The notes under the pieces: generated by a model
Databases searched by the model: none
What the model saw: only the letters and a program-made list of their open reading frames with translations
Told to the model about the DNA's origin: nothing
NCBI GenBank assembly: GCA_902781215.1
Contig: CACZIO010000003.1
Span: forward strand, 24,281-88,280
Reading direction: 5' to 3'
DNA from: an uncultured Lachnospiraceae bacterium
GTDB taxonomy: Bacteria > Bacillota > Clostridia > Lachnospirales > Lachnospiraceae
DNA length: 64,000 nucleotides
In this document: piece after piece, positions 51,716 through 57,673 of the stretch
How positions within the stretch are numbered: the first letter of the stretch is position 1
Layout of the letters: every line of letters starts with the position of its first letter
Position numbers and translations under genes: made by a program

Positions 51716-51977
51716 GCACAATCCCCAGTATTTCGCGTCCAAAACCCCGGGCTTAAGGCCGGGAGCCGCTGCAGGACAGGTCCCGGCGATTCCGGATGGC
51801 AATGTTGGATGTTTTGAGATACAATATAGATATGTCAGATAATATATCAGGAGTGGAGTCAGGAGCCGCCAGGGACGGGAATCCCCGGCGGCTTTTATGT
51901 GACGACGGAATGCTTTCGGCGGCTGATCAAAGGCTGATGAAAGTATCGACAGTATTTACAGGATTCGAGGAGTGGTT

Positions 51978-53141
51978 ATGAAGGAACCGGCAGCGCTGAG
52001 CACGTTGTGCTACATGGAAAAAGACGGAAAGTATCTGATGCTGCACCGGACTGTCAAAAAGAACGATGTCAACAAGGACAAGTGGATCGGCGTCGGCGGG
52101 CATTTTGAAGATGAGGAGAGCCCGGAGGAGTGCCTGCTGCGCGAGGTGCGCGAGGAGACCGGTTATACCCTGACCTCCTGGCGTTTCCGCGGGATCGTGA
52201 CCTTTGTCTCGGGCGACGGCGTCACGGAATATATGCACCTGTTCACGGCGGACGGTTTCGAGGGAGAACCTGTCGAGTGCGATGAGGGTCAGCTGGAATG
52301 GGTGGACATCGCGCAGGTGTGGAAGCTCAACATCTGGGAGGGGGACAAGATCTTTTTTCGTCTGATCGATGAGGACGAACCGTTTTTTTCTCTGAAACTG
52401 GTCTATGACGGGAAGGGCTGCCTGGTGTCGGCGGTCCTGAACGGAGAGCCCATGGAGCTCTTTGATATCATTCGTGAGGACGGGACCAGGACCGGGGTCG
52501 TGCGGGAGCGCGGCGTCGCCCACAGGGACGGAAGTCTCCATGAGACGGTCCACACCTGGATCGTGCGCAGAAAGGCGGACATCCTGCCCGGGCAGACACA
52601 AAACACACAAAACAGCCCTCAGGCCTCTCATGTGCGGGAGGCCTGCCCGGACAACACAGCCGGCAGGCAGCCGGGCTGGGAGGTCCTGCTCCAGAAGCGC
52701 AGTGCCTGCAAGGATTCCAATCCCGGGTGCTACGATATTTCCTCCGCCGGCCATCTGTCGAGCGGGGACGAGCCGCTCGAGGGCGCGGTCCGGGAGCTGC
52801 GCGAGGAGCTGGGACTTGTCATGGAACCGGGGGACCTGCACTATGTCGGCAGGCACCGGGGGACCTTTCAGGCGCCCTTTCACGGCAGGATGTTCCACGA
52901 CAATGAACTGAGCAGCGTCTATGTCATCACAAAAGAGATCGAAGACGGCCAGCTGGTCCTGCAGGAGGACGAGGTCGAATCCGTGCGCTGGATGGACTAC
53001 GAGACCTGCCGCCGGGCGATCCGGGAGGGGACCCTGCCCAACTGTATCTATGCGGATGAATTTGACATGGTCGGCGAATATCTGCGGAAGCTGGAAGACA
53101 CGGAAGCACCTTCGGGTGGCTTATCACGGACTTCGCAATAA
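51978..53141 (+). CDS. Double Nudix hydrolase
   Basis: Two Nudix domains lie in one 387-residue chain. Box 1 is G-GHFEDEESPEECLL-REVREETG, in a MutT/8-oxo-dGTPase-like context starting LCYMEKDGKYLMLHR and KWIGVGGHFE. Box 2 is G-HLSSGDEPLEGAV-RELREELG, in a context like isopentenyl-diphosphate isomerase/YfcD (HTWIVRRK, LLQKRSACKDSNPGCYDISSAGHL). A Gln/Asn-rich insertion (TQNTQNSPQASHVREA) splits a strand of the second domain. ATG 51978 has GAGGAG 5 bases upstream; a GTG at 51972 is the alternative. It is followed 23 bases later by the transposase/beta-galactosidase fusion. Confidence 0.87.
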   Translation: MKEPAALSTLCYMEKDGKYLMLHRTVKKNDVNKDKWIGVGGHFEDEESPEECLLREVREETGYTLTSWRFRGIVTFVSGDGVTEYMHLFTADGFEGEPVECDEGQLEWVDIAQVWKLNIWEGDKIFFRLIDEDEPFFSLKLVYDGKGCLVSAVLNGEPMELFDIIREDGTRTGVVRERGVAHRDGSLHETVHTWIVRRKADILPGQTQNTQNSPQASHVREACPDNTAGRQPGWEVLLQKRSACKDSNPGCYDISSAGHLSSGDEPLEGAVRELREELGLVMEPGDLHYVGRHRGTFQAPFHGRMFHDNELSSVYVITKEIEDGQLVLQEDEVESVRWMDYETCRRAIREGTLPNCIYADEFDMVGEYLRKLEDTEAPSGGLSRTSQ

Positions 53142-53164
53142 CAGAAGCTTTTATCGGAGGAGAG

Positions 53165-56100
53165 ATGGCTTTAACAACATATACCTATGAGCAGCTGGGC
53201 CTGGATACCGGGATGGAGTATCTGACGGACAAGGAAAAAAAGGCCCTGGAGAAGTCCTGGGCCGCGGCTTTTGCGGCGGAGATCTTCCCCTGTATCGATG
53301 AGCGCATCTTCAGGCCGCTTTTCAGCGAGAACAGGGGCGGCAGGAATGTGCCCGTCAATGTTCTGGCCGGCGCCCTGCTCCTGCAGGCGCTGCGGGGCAT
53401 GTCGGACGAGGAACTGATCGGAGCCGCCATGTTCGACCTGAGACTCCGGACTGCCCTGCACATCACCAATGCGGTCGGACAGCCCCTGAGCCTGCGCACC
53501 CTGCAGCGCTTCCGCACGCGGCTGAGGCGCCACAGAGAGACTGCGGGAGAGGATCTGCTGCGGACCTGTCTGGAGAAGATCGGAGACAGGCTGGCCGCCT
53601 ACGTGCGGGATTATGAGAAAAACAGTCCCTGGTACGCCTATGTATCCGGAGACGCCGCAAGGGGCACAAGACGCGTCGGGAAGGGTGCCGGAGAGCCGGG
53701 TGAGACAGCTTCCATGCCGGGGACTGCAGGCAGCGGTGCCGGCATGCAGGAGGCGCTGGCAGCCGCGCTCCTGGCAGGCATGCTCGGTACTTCTTTCTTT
53801 GACCCGGAGATCGTGCGGGATCCGGAGGTCTTCTGCCAGAACCGGCTCCCCGCCCATTCGGACCATGTCTGGTTTGCGGACGAGGAGGAACTGGAGGCCG
53901 GAAAGGAAGAGCCCGCCGGCACGGCAGGGACCTCCTCCCTGCGGATGTCGCTGAACGGCCTGTGGAAGTTTTCCTACGCCGGGCGGCCCCAGGATGCTCC
54001 GGCGGGCTTTGAGGATCCCGGCTATGACTGCAGCGCCTGGGCGGACATTCCCGTTCCCGCCCATATCCAGCTGGAGGGCTATGATACACCTGCCTACATC
54101 AATTACCAGTACCCCTGGGACGGGCGGGAGGATATCGTGCCCGGCGAGATCCCGCAGGAATTCAATCCGACCGCGTCCTATGTGAAGTTTTTCCGGCTCC
54201 CCGCCTGTATGCAGGGGCGCCCGGTCTTTATTTCCTTCCAGGGAGTGGAGAGCGGTTTTGCCCTCTGGTGCAACGGCTCCTATGTCGGCTACAGCGAGGA
54301 CAGCTTTACCCCCGCCGAATTTGACCTGACGCCCTTCGTGCAGGAGGGTGAGAACAGGCTCGCTGTCCGCGTTTTCAAATGGACCGCCTCCAGCTGGCTG
54401 GAGAGCCAGGACTTCTTCCGCTTTTCCGGTATCTTCCGGGATGTATATCTCTACACGGTCCCCGACGTTCATCTGTATGACCTGCGGATCTGTCCGCAGC
54501 TGGATGCATCCCTCGGGGAAGGGACCCTGCAGGTGGAGGCGCAGATCCTGCTGACGGGCTCTGCCGCGCGGGAAGCGCTGAAAAGGGAAGAGCTCTATCT
54601 GGAATATACCCTGACAAAAAAGGGGGATTCCCCGGCAAAAGCGGTCTGCAGCGGCAGAACTGTTCTGCTTGCATTGTCTGAGGCAGATTCCTCAGAAAAC
54701 GATTCCCCTGAGAAAAAAGATGTTTCCGGCAGCGCAGAACCCTGCAGTAAAGGATTCGGCGGCACAGAGTCCTGCAAGGTTGGGCCGGACGGGAAAGATC
54801 GCGATGATGATGGTGCCGGAAACGGTTTCCGGTCCCTGGGCCTCCTGCCTCTTTCTTTTTCTGAAAAAATCGAGCGACCTGCTCTGTGGAGCGCGGAGGA
54901 TCCGCAGCTCTATGAGCTGACCCTGCGGCTGGTGCAGGAGCCGGACCAGGGACAGGATCAGCATAAGGTGGTACAGAGCGCCGGACCGGATGCGCCGGAG
55001 GACCTGGGCAGCGGGACGGCAGGCGCGGAGAGCGGACAGCAGTCTGACGGGACCGGAGCGCAGCAGGGCGGAGCAGGTGCTGAGCATGGCGAAACCGATC
55101 ATATCCTGTTCGAGATCGTCCGCGAGCGCGCGGGCTTCCGCCGCTTTGAGCTGGTGGACGGTCTGATGCGGATCAACGGGGAGCGCATTGTCTTCCGCGG
55201 CGTGAACCGCCACGAATTCACCTGTGACAGCGGCCGCGTGGTGCCGGCGGAGATCACCCGGCAGGACCTGATCCTGATGAAGCAGAACAACATCAATGCC
55301 GTGCGTACCTGCCACTACCCCAATTCCTCCGCCCTCTACCGCGACTGCGACGAGCTGGGCCTCTACCTGATCGCGGAGAACAACATGGAATCCCACGGCA
55401 GCTGGGCGCCCGTGGAGGCAGGCCTGCCGACACCGGGCATTGTCCCGGGGGATGACCCCGCCTGGCGGCCCATGCTCCTGGACCGCGTCAACAGCTGTTA
55501 CCAGCGGGACAAGAACCACCCCTCGGTCCTGATCTGGTCGGTGGGCAATGAATCCTTCGGCGGGAGCGTGATCCGGGACATGGCGGACTGTTTCCGTCAG
55601 CTGGATCCGGGCCGCCCGGTCCACTACGAGGGCATTTTCCACGACCGCACATGGCCGCAGACCAGCGATATGGAGAGCCAGATGTACCCCTCTGCGGAGG
55701 CCATCGAGGCCTTCCTGCAGGAGCATCCAGACAAGCCCTTTATCTGCTGTGAATATACCCACGCCATGGGCAACTCCTGCGGCGGCATGCACCGCTACAC
55801 AGACCTGACCCTGCGAGAGCCCCGTTACCAGGGCGGATTTATCTGGGACTTTGTCGACCAGTCCCTGCGCATGAAAAACCGCCGCGGCGAGGAGTTCCAG
55901 GCCTACGGCGGAGACTGCGGCGAGCGGCCCACGGACTACGATTTTTCCGGCAACGGGATCGTGGACGGGACCAGGAAGCCCTATGCGGGCAAGATGCAGG
56001 AGGTGAAGTTCAACTATCAGCCCATCCGCCTGGAGGTCGGCCGCGACAGTGTGCGCGTGATGAACGACAACCTTTTTACGGGCACAGACTTCTATGACTG

Positions 56101-57673
56101 TGTCGTCATCCTGGAGCGGGAAGGCGTCCGGACCGCGGAGGCAGTGCTGGAGACAGCCGTTCCGCCCCTCTCGGAAAAAACATACCGTCTGCCGGAGGCG
56201 ATCCTGGACGGGATTGCGCGGATCGAGGCGGAAGCAGCCGGTCCGAACGGCCCGGCGGAATATGCGGTCACCGTCTCCATGAGACTGGCCGGGGACTGCG
56301 CATGGGCGAAGCGAGGACATGAGACTGCCTTCGGCCAGGGCTTGTTTGCGGCAGGATCTGCCGCAGGCACAGGCACAGAGAATACTTCCGTGATTTACTC
56401 TGCAGCTGCGGATACCCCGGCATCTGCAGACACAGAGAAGACAGCTGTGACAGGCACTGTGCAGGCGAATGAACGCGCAGCTGGCAGGGCCGCCGGGCAG
56501 GAAGGCATGTCGCAGCGGACCCGGATTGACGGAACAGACTGGCAGCGGACGATCCGGCTGGACACAAGGGACGGCGTGCTTGCCCTGACCCGGGGGAGCT
56601 TTAATATCGGCGTCCGGGGCGGAAACTTTGATGCCCTGTTTTCCCTCCTGCGGGGCGGGCTGGTCTCCTTCCGCAGGGGAGGACACCGCGGCACCGGGAC
56701 CGGCTTTTCGGCGGCGGACAGGGAGCTGTTCGCAAAGCTGCCGCGCCCCTGCTTCTGGCGGGCACCCACCAGCAACGATGACGGCAACCGGATGGCGGCC
56801 CGCCACGGGATCTGGAAACTGGCCGACCAGTACCAGATTCCCAGACCCGAGACGCTGGAGATCTTTACAGAACAGGATTCGGTCCTGCTGCAGATGCAAT
56901 ACGCGTTGCCGGTATCATGGCCGACGGAGAATGCATCGGGACCTGTGCCTGTATCCGGCCCGGACGGTGCGGACACGGTGGGTGACAGTGCCGGCGCTGC
57001 GGCGGACGGCATTGCCGCGCAGGCCGCACAGGCCGGGAACCCCCTGGATCAGCTGCCCTTTGTCACGGCCGGATACCGCTTCCGGGCAGACGGCAGCCTG
57101 ACGCTCACGCTTGACTGGGATCCGATGAAATCAGGCGACTGGCGGAATCTTCCGTCCATGCCTGTCTTCGGCTTCCTCTTCCAGATGGATGCGGACTGCG
57201 ACCGCTTCAGCTGGTACGGCAGGGGCCCGGCGGAAAACTACGTGGACCGCTGCAGGGGCGCCCGGCTGGGCATCTACCGCAGCAGGGTCCGGGACAATAT
57301 GTCGCCCTACCTGGTACCCCAGGAATGCGGAAACCGCACCGGTGTCCGCTGGGCTGAGGTGACCGACGCGCGCGGCCGCGGCGTGAGATTTGCCGCGGGG
57401 GACGGTCCGGGCGGCCGGAAGGAGGAAATCCAGGGACCGGCTTCCCGTGTGAAGCCCTCCATGGAGTTTTCCGCCCTGCCCTGGACGCCGCAGGAGCTGG
57501 AGAGTGCCGCCCACCCCTATGAGCTGCCGCCCGTGCACTTCACGACGGTCCGCTGCGCCCTCATGCAGATGGGTGTCGGCGGAGACGACAGCTGGGGTGC
57601 CAGGACCCTGCCGCAGTACTGCCTGCCGGCGGGAGAGAAGCTGCATTTCGAGGTGACCGTCGAAGGAATATGA
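53165..57673 (+). CDS. lacZ: Beta-galactosidase (GH2) fused behind an IS1182-type transposase N-terminal domain
   Basis: The 1502-residue open frame starts after GGAGGAG. Residues 1 to ~150 match the N-terminal DUF772 domain of IS1182-family transposases: YLTDKEKKALEKSWAAAFA, IFPCIDE, PVNVLAGALLLQAL, MFDLRLRTALH and PLSLRTLQRFRTRL. After a Gly/Ala/Pro linker, a complete beta-galactosidase begins near residue 211 (FFDPEIVRDPEVFCQNRLPAH). Its acid/base Glu796 lies in WSVGNES and its nucleophile Glu863 in CEYTHAMGNS. The transposase catalytic DDE part is missing. No good internal start precedes the LacZ part (Met206 lacks a ribosome binding site). Four low-complexity inserts (about 502-559, 590-647, 1062-1120, 1256-1294) lengthen the enzyme. 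Hydrolysis of lactose or related galactosides is expected. Confidence 0.9.
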   Translation: MALTTYTYEQLGLDTGMEYLTDKEKKALEKSWAAAFAAEIFPCIDERIFRPLFSENRGGRNVPVNVLAGALLLQALRGMSDEELIGAAMFDLRLRTALHITNAVGQPLSLRTLQRFRTRLRRHRETAGEDLLRTCLEKIGDRLAAYVRDYEKNSPWYAYVSGDAARGTRRVGKGAGEPGETASMPGTAGSGAGMQEALAAALLAGMLGTSFFDPEIVRDPEVFCQNRLPAHSDHVWFADEEELEAGKEEPAGTAGTSSLRMSLNGLWKFSYAGRPQDAPAGFEDPGYDCSAWADIPVPAHIQLEGYDTPAYINYQYPWDGREDIVPGEIPQEFNPTASYVKFFRLPACMQGRPVFISFQGVESGFALWCNGSYVGYSEDSFTPAEFDLTPFVQEGENRLAVRVFKWTASSWLESQDFFRFSGIFRDVYLYTVPDVHLYDLRICPQLDASLGEGTLQVEAQILLTGSAAREALKREELYLEYTLTKKGDSPAKAVCSGRTVLLALSEADSSENDSPEKKDVSGSAEPCSKGFGGTESCKVGPDGKDRDDDGAGNGFRSLGLLPLSFSEKIERPALWSAEDPQLYELTLRLVQEPDQGQDQHKVVQSAGPDAPEDLGSGTAGAESGQQSDGTGAQQGGAGAEHGETDHILFEIVRERAGFRRFELVDGLMRINGERIVFRGVNRHEFTCDSGRVVPAEITRQDLILMKQNNINAVRTCHYPNSSALYRDCDELGLYLIAENNMESHGSWAPVEAGLPTPGIVPGDDPAWRPMLLDRVNSCYQRDKNHPSVLIWSVGNESFGGSVIRDMADCFRQLDPGRPVHYEGIFHDRTWPQTSDMESQMYPSAEAIEAFLQEHPDKPFICCEYTHAMGNSCGGMHRYTDLTLREPRYQGGFIWDFVDQSLRMKNRRGEEFQAYGGDCGERPTDYDFSGNGIVDGTRKPYAGKMQEVKFNYQPIRLEVGRDSVRVMNDNLFTGTDFYDCVVILEREGVRTAEAVLETAVPPLSEKTYRLPEAILDGIARIEAEAAGPNGPAEYAVTVSMRLAGDCAWAKRGHETAFGQGLFAAGSAAGTGTENTSVIYSAAADTPASADTEKTAVTGTVQANERAAGRAAGQEGMSQRTRIDGTDWQRTIRLDTRDGVLALTRGSFNIGVRGGNFDALFSLLRGGLVSFRRGGHRGTGTGFSAADRELFAKLPRPCFWRAPTSNDDGNRMAARHGIWKLADQYQIPRPETLEIFTEQDSVLLQMQYALPVSWPTENASGPVPVSGPDGADTVGDSAGAAADGIAAQAAQAGNPLDQLPFVTAGYRFRADGSLTLTLDWDPMKSGDWRNLPSMPVFGFLFQMDADCDRFSWYGRGPAENYVDRCRGARLGIYRSRVRDNMSPYLVPQECGNRTGVRWAEVTDARGRGVRFAAGDGPGGRKEEIQGPASRVKPSMEFSALPWTPQELESAAHPYELPPVHFTTVRCALMQMGVGGDDSWGARTLPQYCLPAGEKLHFEVTVEGI

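Follow-up and report, generated by a model that had tools for sequence, protein, structure and literature searches.

An IS1182-like transposase domain fused in frame to a LacZ-type beta-galactosidase and apparently kept under selection in one genus of gut Lachnospiraceae

Fusion Gene and Its Domain Layout

The gene at positions 53165–57673 (+ strand) of the window, as we call the 64,000-nucleotide stretch of an uncultured Lachnospiraceae genome analysed here (assembly GCA_902781215.1, contig CACZIO010000003.1, positions 24,281 to 88,280), joins the N-terminus of an IS1182-like DUF772 transposase and a complete LacZ-type GH2 beta-galactosidase in a single reading frame. Comparison across the genus demonstrates that the start, a domain of about 150 residues, and the enzyme are passed on jointly in a single frame and, judging by their substitution patterns, selected as protein. 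Probably a transposase domain was domesticated once, long ago, as a protein module under selection, and more than a start signal was borrowed. Capture followed by selection can be regarded as highly probable, and the explanation as a whole, in which the head would also have kept a DNA-binding role, has in our estimate a probability of about one half.

The frame comprises 1502 codons, begins with ATG, and contains zero internal stops according to the open reading frame list and the translation. Since the opposite strand carries another open frame of 735 codons there, long frames by themselves are weak evidence here; the fusion is accepted as real because its junction is conserved in 28 of the 62 genomes of the genus. 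A strong ribosome binding site (GGAGGAGAG, 53156–53164, + strand) lies immediately 5' of the ATG at 53165, and each of the 28 fusions has a purine-rich 4-mer, from a loose set including GGGG, GGGA, and AAGG, before its aligned start.

Three parts can be distinguished in the protein, all encoded on the + strand. Residues 1–150 (53165–53614) form the putatively domesticated N-terminal domain of a transposase; its DUF772 core (Pfam PF05598, residues 61–130) scores 29.6 bits against a cut-off of 23.1, and 33.3 bits are reached when residues 1–205 are used alone. Residues ~151–210 (53615–53794) are a linker that is variable by identity and by substitution ratio and contains M184, M194, and M206. 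The remainder, residues 211–1502 (53795–57670), matches the Pfam domains Glyco_hydro_2_N (262–433), Glyco_hydro_2 (566–600), Glyco_hydro_2_C (662–955), LacZ_4 (963–1058), and Bgal_small_N (1152–1498), and the whole protein scores 1214.8 bits against the NCBIfam model NF052611 (beta_gal_Bga2A, cut-off 999). The catalytic glutamates are E796 (WSVGNES) and E863 (CCEYTHAMGNS), which we take to be the acid/base and the nucleophile, respectively, by analogy with E. coli LacZ. Both are present in 26 of the 28 fusions; the exceptions are L159, which ends at a contig edge, and L144, in which the segment is lost. By domain set, curated score, and catalytic residues, the protein can be assigned to the LacZ-type GH2 beta-galactosidases. 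Its GH2 part starts at about residue 211 (FDxxIVxDPxxF), the same point at which unfused LacZ proteins start. The AlphaFold model predicts a helical domain from ~20 to 166, a low-confidence hinge at 168–171, and GH2 after it.

No DDE domain was matched by Pfam in the window protein, and the full-length IS1182 model NF033551 is not reached (25.9 bits, cut-off 270). Between residues 140 and 220 there are three in-frame ATGs (184, 194, and 206), and none of them has, within the 16 bases tested, a Shine–Dalgarno-like 4-mer (AGGA, GGAG, or GAGG). The first-pass annotation, made from the sequence of the window, had described an in-frame capture of a transposase N-terminus with its start codon and ribosome site, an uninterrupted 1502-codon frame, a GH2 part from about residue 211 with both glutamates and no usable internal start, and a product incapable of acting as a transposase; each of these points agrees with the results above.

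Complete fusions are 1359–1542 aa long in the group close to the window and 1209–1332 aa in a further group, while unfused LacZ frames have ~1014–1121 aa. The LacZ part of the window protein contains long Gly/Ser/Asp/Glu-rich inserts between its domains (~54630–55100, 56400–56620, and 56980–57090).

Distribution in the Genus

With residues 1–210 as a query, matches were obtained in 38 of 195 genomes. The 62 genomes of the genus were searched with a five-row alignment of the domain, and 32 of them gave matches; two were set aside, G038 with a transposase piece only and G037 with a weak match. The fusion-type domain is found in the other 30, with one copy per genome in 30 of 30. At 28 of the 30 loci, that of the window included, it is in frame with LacZ (25 complete genes and three ending at a contig edge; open frames of 676–1562 codons), and the two remaining loci are broken and lack a working LacZ. 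A search for the same junction in related genomes had been proposed in the first-pass annotation, and these 28 genomes are its outcome. Four of these loci also appear in named records, L002, L003 (Sarcina sp. DSM 11001), L004, and L028 (Lachnospiraceae bacterium NK3A20); the DSM 11001 and NK3A20 records are taken to be isolates. The same junction in 28 genomes, two named records among them, argues against a frameshift or a chimeric contig.

Outside the genus, no fusion was found in 133 genomes of a first set or in 395 of a second, overlapping one, where domain-bearing frames have at most 559 codons. As far as the compared genomes indicate, the fusion is an old event common to about thirty species of one gut-bacterial genus and not a local one. 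Lachnospiraceae-like lacZ genes were seen in two records named Muribaculaceae and Gastranaerophilales (L010 and L064), possibly because of misbinned contigs.

Selection on the Captured Domain

Across the 28 aligned fusions, none of the window columns of residues 1–150 is missing, and one-residue insertions occur only in L149, L163, and L164. Met1 is invariant, and 27 of the 150 columns are conserved in at least 93% of rows. Mean identities are 0.50 over residues 1–150, 0.62 over residues 211–470, and 0.67 over the barrel; the linker, compared in the 36 pairs that overlap sufficiently, has 0.23.

The ratio of nonsynonymous to synonymous substitution rates (dN/dS) was calculated for every pair that gave finite values (314 of 378). 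For the domain it has a median of 0.288 and a range of 0.016–0.808, and it is below 1 in 314 of 314 pairs. In all 16 pairs with a domain identity of at least 0.85, the domain values are 0.016–0.146; the barrel values are 0.017–0.087 in the five pairs with a domain identity of at least 0.95. In the four pairs in which the linker aligns, among the 30 listed of 229 with a barrel dS below 1.5, its dN/dS is 0.43–0.49. Thus, the ratios point to clear purifying selection on the domain, weaker overall than that on the barrel. For 23 of the 28 rows (without L140, L144, L156, L159, and L169), a Mantel test shows that domain distances follow barrel distances (r 0.79, 0 of 5000 permutations). The dN/dS values indicate purifying selection after the loss of mobility, as expected of a domesticated transposase gene.

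Retention of the Domain after Decay of the Enzyme

In genome G010, the fusion frame (L144:895–4971, − strand) is open over 1359 codons, yet its barrel lacks 118 of 311 columns, those of the acid/base and nucleophile segments among them, and the Pfam barrel model is matched only over 4–77 of its 302 positions. From its sequence, L144 is a pseudo-beta-galactosidase, presumably catalytically dead, that is still fused to the transposase head. The dN/dS of its barrel to three relatives, over the 193 columns that remain, is 0.286–0.347, versus 0.057–0.069 in two intact pairs, whereas its head gives 0.072–0.095 versus 0.067–0.072 in two intact pairs.

Two other loci have gone further. Genome G055 (L147) encodes the head with a LacZ stub, 326 aa in total, and is nearest to L144 in the domain tree (support 97/66). 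In G014 (L148:1540–2082, + strand) a stand-alone head of 181 residues lies behind the same NUDIX gene that precedes the window fusion, and LacZ is gone. The dN/dS of the head is 0.055–0.090 in all 11 pairs involving L147 or L148. Because the head is constrained in L144, L147, and L148 alike, the constraint appears to be independent of beta-galactosidase activity. Judging by these loci, the domain persists in two lineages in which LacZ is without its catalytic segment, reduced to a stub, or absent. The first-pass annotation had left the choice between a new domain and a new expression signal; the ratios, the invariant residues, and the retention of the head where LacZ is dead or lost favour the domain.

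Origin and Extent of the Captured Domain

In a domain tree of 43 rows (without L187, L190, and L192; 13 of 16 transposase rows stayed), the 30 fusion-type domains lie on one side of a branch with a support of 100/99 and the 13 transposases on the other. In the LacZ tree, the fusion label changes five times, once because L028, which carries the same fusion as L157, was labelled unfused. The pruned tree has three changes, and the approximately unbiased test does not reject a tree with all fusions in one clade (p-AU 0.21). Of 80 loci, 22 and then 16 were taken for the LacZ trees; both were built without L174, and the second also without L173, L176, L018, L027, L028, L044, L050, and L077 and without the fast or cut rows L144, L156, and L159. 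The trees suggest that there was probably one capture, after which the fusion was in some cases lost or transferred. At L174, the GH2 gene of genome G028 is split across two frames, and it is a decaying or mis-sequenced unfused lacZ.

The genus also contains a full-length IS1182-like transposase (L178), in which Pfam finds DUF772 and then DDE domains. Against the NCBIfam IS1182 model it scores 126.8 (cut-off 270), so the captured domain should be called IS1182-like; the IS1182 type given in the first-pass annotation holds in this looser sense and not as strict membership of the family. L178:378–2279 and L180:332–2241 are two ~1.9 kb copies of an IS1182-like element in the same genome, 90% identical, whose outer inverted repeat is accompanied by an inner one of 22–28 bases; the inner repeat is perfect and is a candidate transposase binding site.

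The fusion head aligns with transposases from Met1 and has ~40–46% identity to full-length relatives in its own genus and family; the captured part spans the first 150 to 175 amino acids of the fusions. In BLAST searches with the head of L168 (a short-linker fusion, 175 residues), the alignments reach residues 164–172 in 13 of the 20 transposase rows for which L168 was the better query. The aligned stretch includes the transposase motif RMDSxM, presumably the region of the first catalytic Asp, and D157 is kept in 57% of fusions. In the further group, the captured piece seems to have ~170 residues and to extend as far as the first-Asp motif, at the beginning of the DDE fold. In the window clade, a longer and fast-evolving linker obscures this part.

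Possible DNA Binding by the Head

The head keeps 32 of the 45 columns that are highly conserved in 18 transposases (18 of 27 rows, without L179 and L185–L192), including R115, F116, R117, and R119, and it is less acidic than the transposases (mean net charge −2.5 versus −6.8). A kept nucleic-acid-facing role would be favoured by this, because drift is expected to erode such a surface first. That the head still binds DNA is a possibility to which we would give somewhat less than even odds. When the ends of one insertion sequence (IS) element of the genus were compared with the 600 bases upstream of 30 genes, no IS-end motif was found before the fusion genes: the matches resemble those of shuffled sequences, with a single 14-of-18 match at L144, 561 bases before the fusion.

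Proposed Explanation and Its Alternatives

We suggest that the gene of an IS1182-like transposase was truncated behind the part encoding the N-terminal helical domain and fused in frame to lacZ, in what was most likely a single event in an ancestor of those species of the genus that carry the fusion. The product would be a single cytoplasmic protein in which a helical head folds separately from the LacZ body. If the head keeps the DNA-binding job of the transposase, the result would be a DNA-tethered or DNA-regulating beta-galactosidase, in which LacZ may act as a partner, sensor, or carrier and the head may be useful alone once LacZ decays. In a bolder form, which we hold to be unlikely, the end-binding domain of a transposon would have become a DNA-reading head, LacZ (the dead copy in G010 included) a sugar sensor, and the head of G014 a reader alone.

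Several results weigh against this explanation. The dN/dS of the domain exceeds that of the barrel (median 0.194) in 265 of 314 pairs, which means a weaker overall constraint; we think that the higher values stem from diverged pairs, some with a GC content at third codon positions of 0.8–0.9, in which dS is underestimated. The evidence of decay comes from draft genomes and two lineages at a dS of ~0.9–1.5, the pairwise values of the head include time before LacZ decayed, and the alignment of the remaining L144 barrel columns is less sure. The end branch of L148 in the domain tree is 0.25 versus 0.11–0.12 in its intact relatives L143 and L145. The LacZ clade that holds all 28 fusions (99% in the Shimodaira–Hasegawa-like approximate likelihood ratio test, SH-aLRT) also contains a few unfused proteins. 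Thirteen of the 45 transposase-conserved columns, R23 among them, are not kept in the head. No common upstream site was found before the fusion genes, and a simple conserved autoregulator is not supported by these sequences.

The captured domain may instead work without binding DNA, as a module of assembly, stability, or localisation, for example in the association of LacZ subunits. This agrees with its position N-terminal to LacZ at 28 of 30 loci, its co-evolution with LacZ, its predicted fold as a compact helical unit beside the enzyme, and the lack of an operator motif among the sites compared. However, the head is equally constrained beside the dead barrel of L144, is kept with a stub or with no LacZ at all, and retains the transposase-type basic residues R115, R117, and R119, and we consider this reading rather unlikely.

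Truncated transposases can serve as inhibitors, and the domain, which retains transposase-conserved residues, might guard against IS1182-type elements as a competitor for transposon ends, since IS1182-like transposases are present in the genus. In the window's own genome, however, there is no further match at E 0.001, and clear IS1182-like transposase genes or pieces occur in 5 of the 30 domain-bearing genomes (G018, G020, G027, G029, and G061) versus one or two of the other 32 (G038 and the weak match in G037), so no exclusion of elements is visible. A guard would also give no reason for a fixed LacZ partner, which makes such a role improbable.

Two products, with translation of LacZ beginning internally and the head separate or minor, would require a start in the linker. 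An ATG, GTG, or TTG is found there in 21 of 28 fusions (ATG in 16) and comes with some Shine–Dalgarno-like 4-mer in nine; yet seven fusions have no such codon, the positions are not conserved, and the three linker ATGs of the window lack such a site, which leaves this very improbable. About as improbable is a capture of only the start and the ribosome site, with the domain as a passenger: the start does bear a ribosome binding site, the alignment with transposases begins at Met, and the barrel is overall the slower-evolving part, but ratios below 1 in every pair, invariant residues, and 150 columns without a gap stand against a fast linker directly behind, and the head stays conserved after LacZ decays. 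An assembly artefact, frameshift, or pseudogene, suggested by the draft state of the genomes and by three of the 30 loci, two without a working LacZ and one with a dead barrel, can practically be dismissed, since 28 genomes share the junction, the named records of Sarcina sp. DSM 11001 and NK3A20 among them, and purifying selection is seen throughout.

Gene Neighbourhood

In the window, a gene with two Pfam NUDIX stretches (51972–53141, + strand) ends 23 bases before the fusion. A NUDIX gene on the same strand lies just upstream at 8 of 11 loci of the close group (L141, L142, L143, L145, L146, L148, L149, and the window), and none was seen in the flanks of L140, L144, and L147. Upstream neighbours vary by clade, from NUDIX in the window clade to a DeoC/LacD aldolase, a short-chain dehydrogenase, and PLD-like and ABC genes; at several loci, a PTS_EIIC_2 gene lies downstream and faces the fusion. 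The flanking genes come from 13 loci and were checked with Pfam for one gene per kind and by eye for the others. The place of the locus is common within clades and different between them, and the neighbours give no evident lac operon.

Comparison with Known Systems

Like LacZ-type beta-galactosidases (NF052611), the fusion has the same LacZ domains and both catalytic glutamates; it differs in ~210 extra N-terminal residues, the transposase-derived part included, and, in the window clade, in long low-complexity inserts between the LacZ domains. The N-terminal ~150–170 residues of IS1182-family transposases (DUF772 and DDE) align with the head, whereas the fusion has no DDE part beyond at most the first-Asp stretch, occurs in one copy per genome, and has a fixed partner. 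Trigger enzymes such as PutA and BirA are enzymes with a DNA-binding part that can sense their substrate; the comparison would concern the way of working only, as the proposed DNA-binding part of the fusion is transposase-derived.

Host capture of transposase domains is well discussed for eukaryotes, as in SETMAR and in F-box genes with a Tc1/Mariner helix–turn–helix (HTH) (PMC6326780, PMC12062965). There, the transposase part is likewise reported to be in frame with a host protein and to be the DNA-binding part; here the case is bacterial, the domain is IS1182-like, the partner is a metabolic enzyme, and DNA binding is only inferred. In the titles and abstract beginnings examined, all from open-licence literature, we found neither a description of this fusion architecture nor a bacterial transposase capture with a metabolic-enzyme partner. 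No open-licence literature was found that pairs 'DUF772' with 'beta-galactosidase' or joins 'beta-galactosidase', 'Lachnospiraceae', and 'transposase domain'.

An annotation as 'beta-galactosidase' or 'transposase' alone would describe only half of the fusion gene. Its natural variants, with a dead enzyme, a stub, or the head only, and two named strains are available for study. If the head binds DNA, the fusion would be a testable case of bacteria building a new regulator from a jumping gene.
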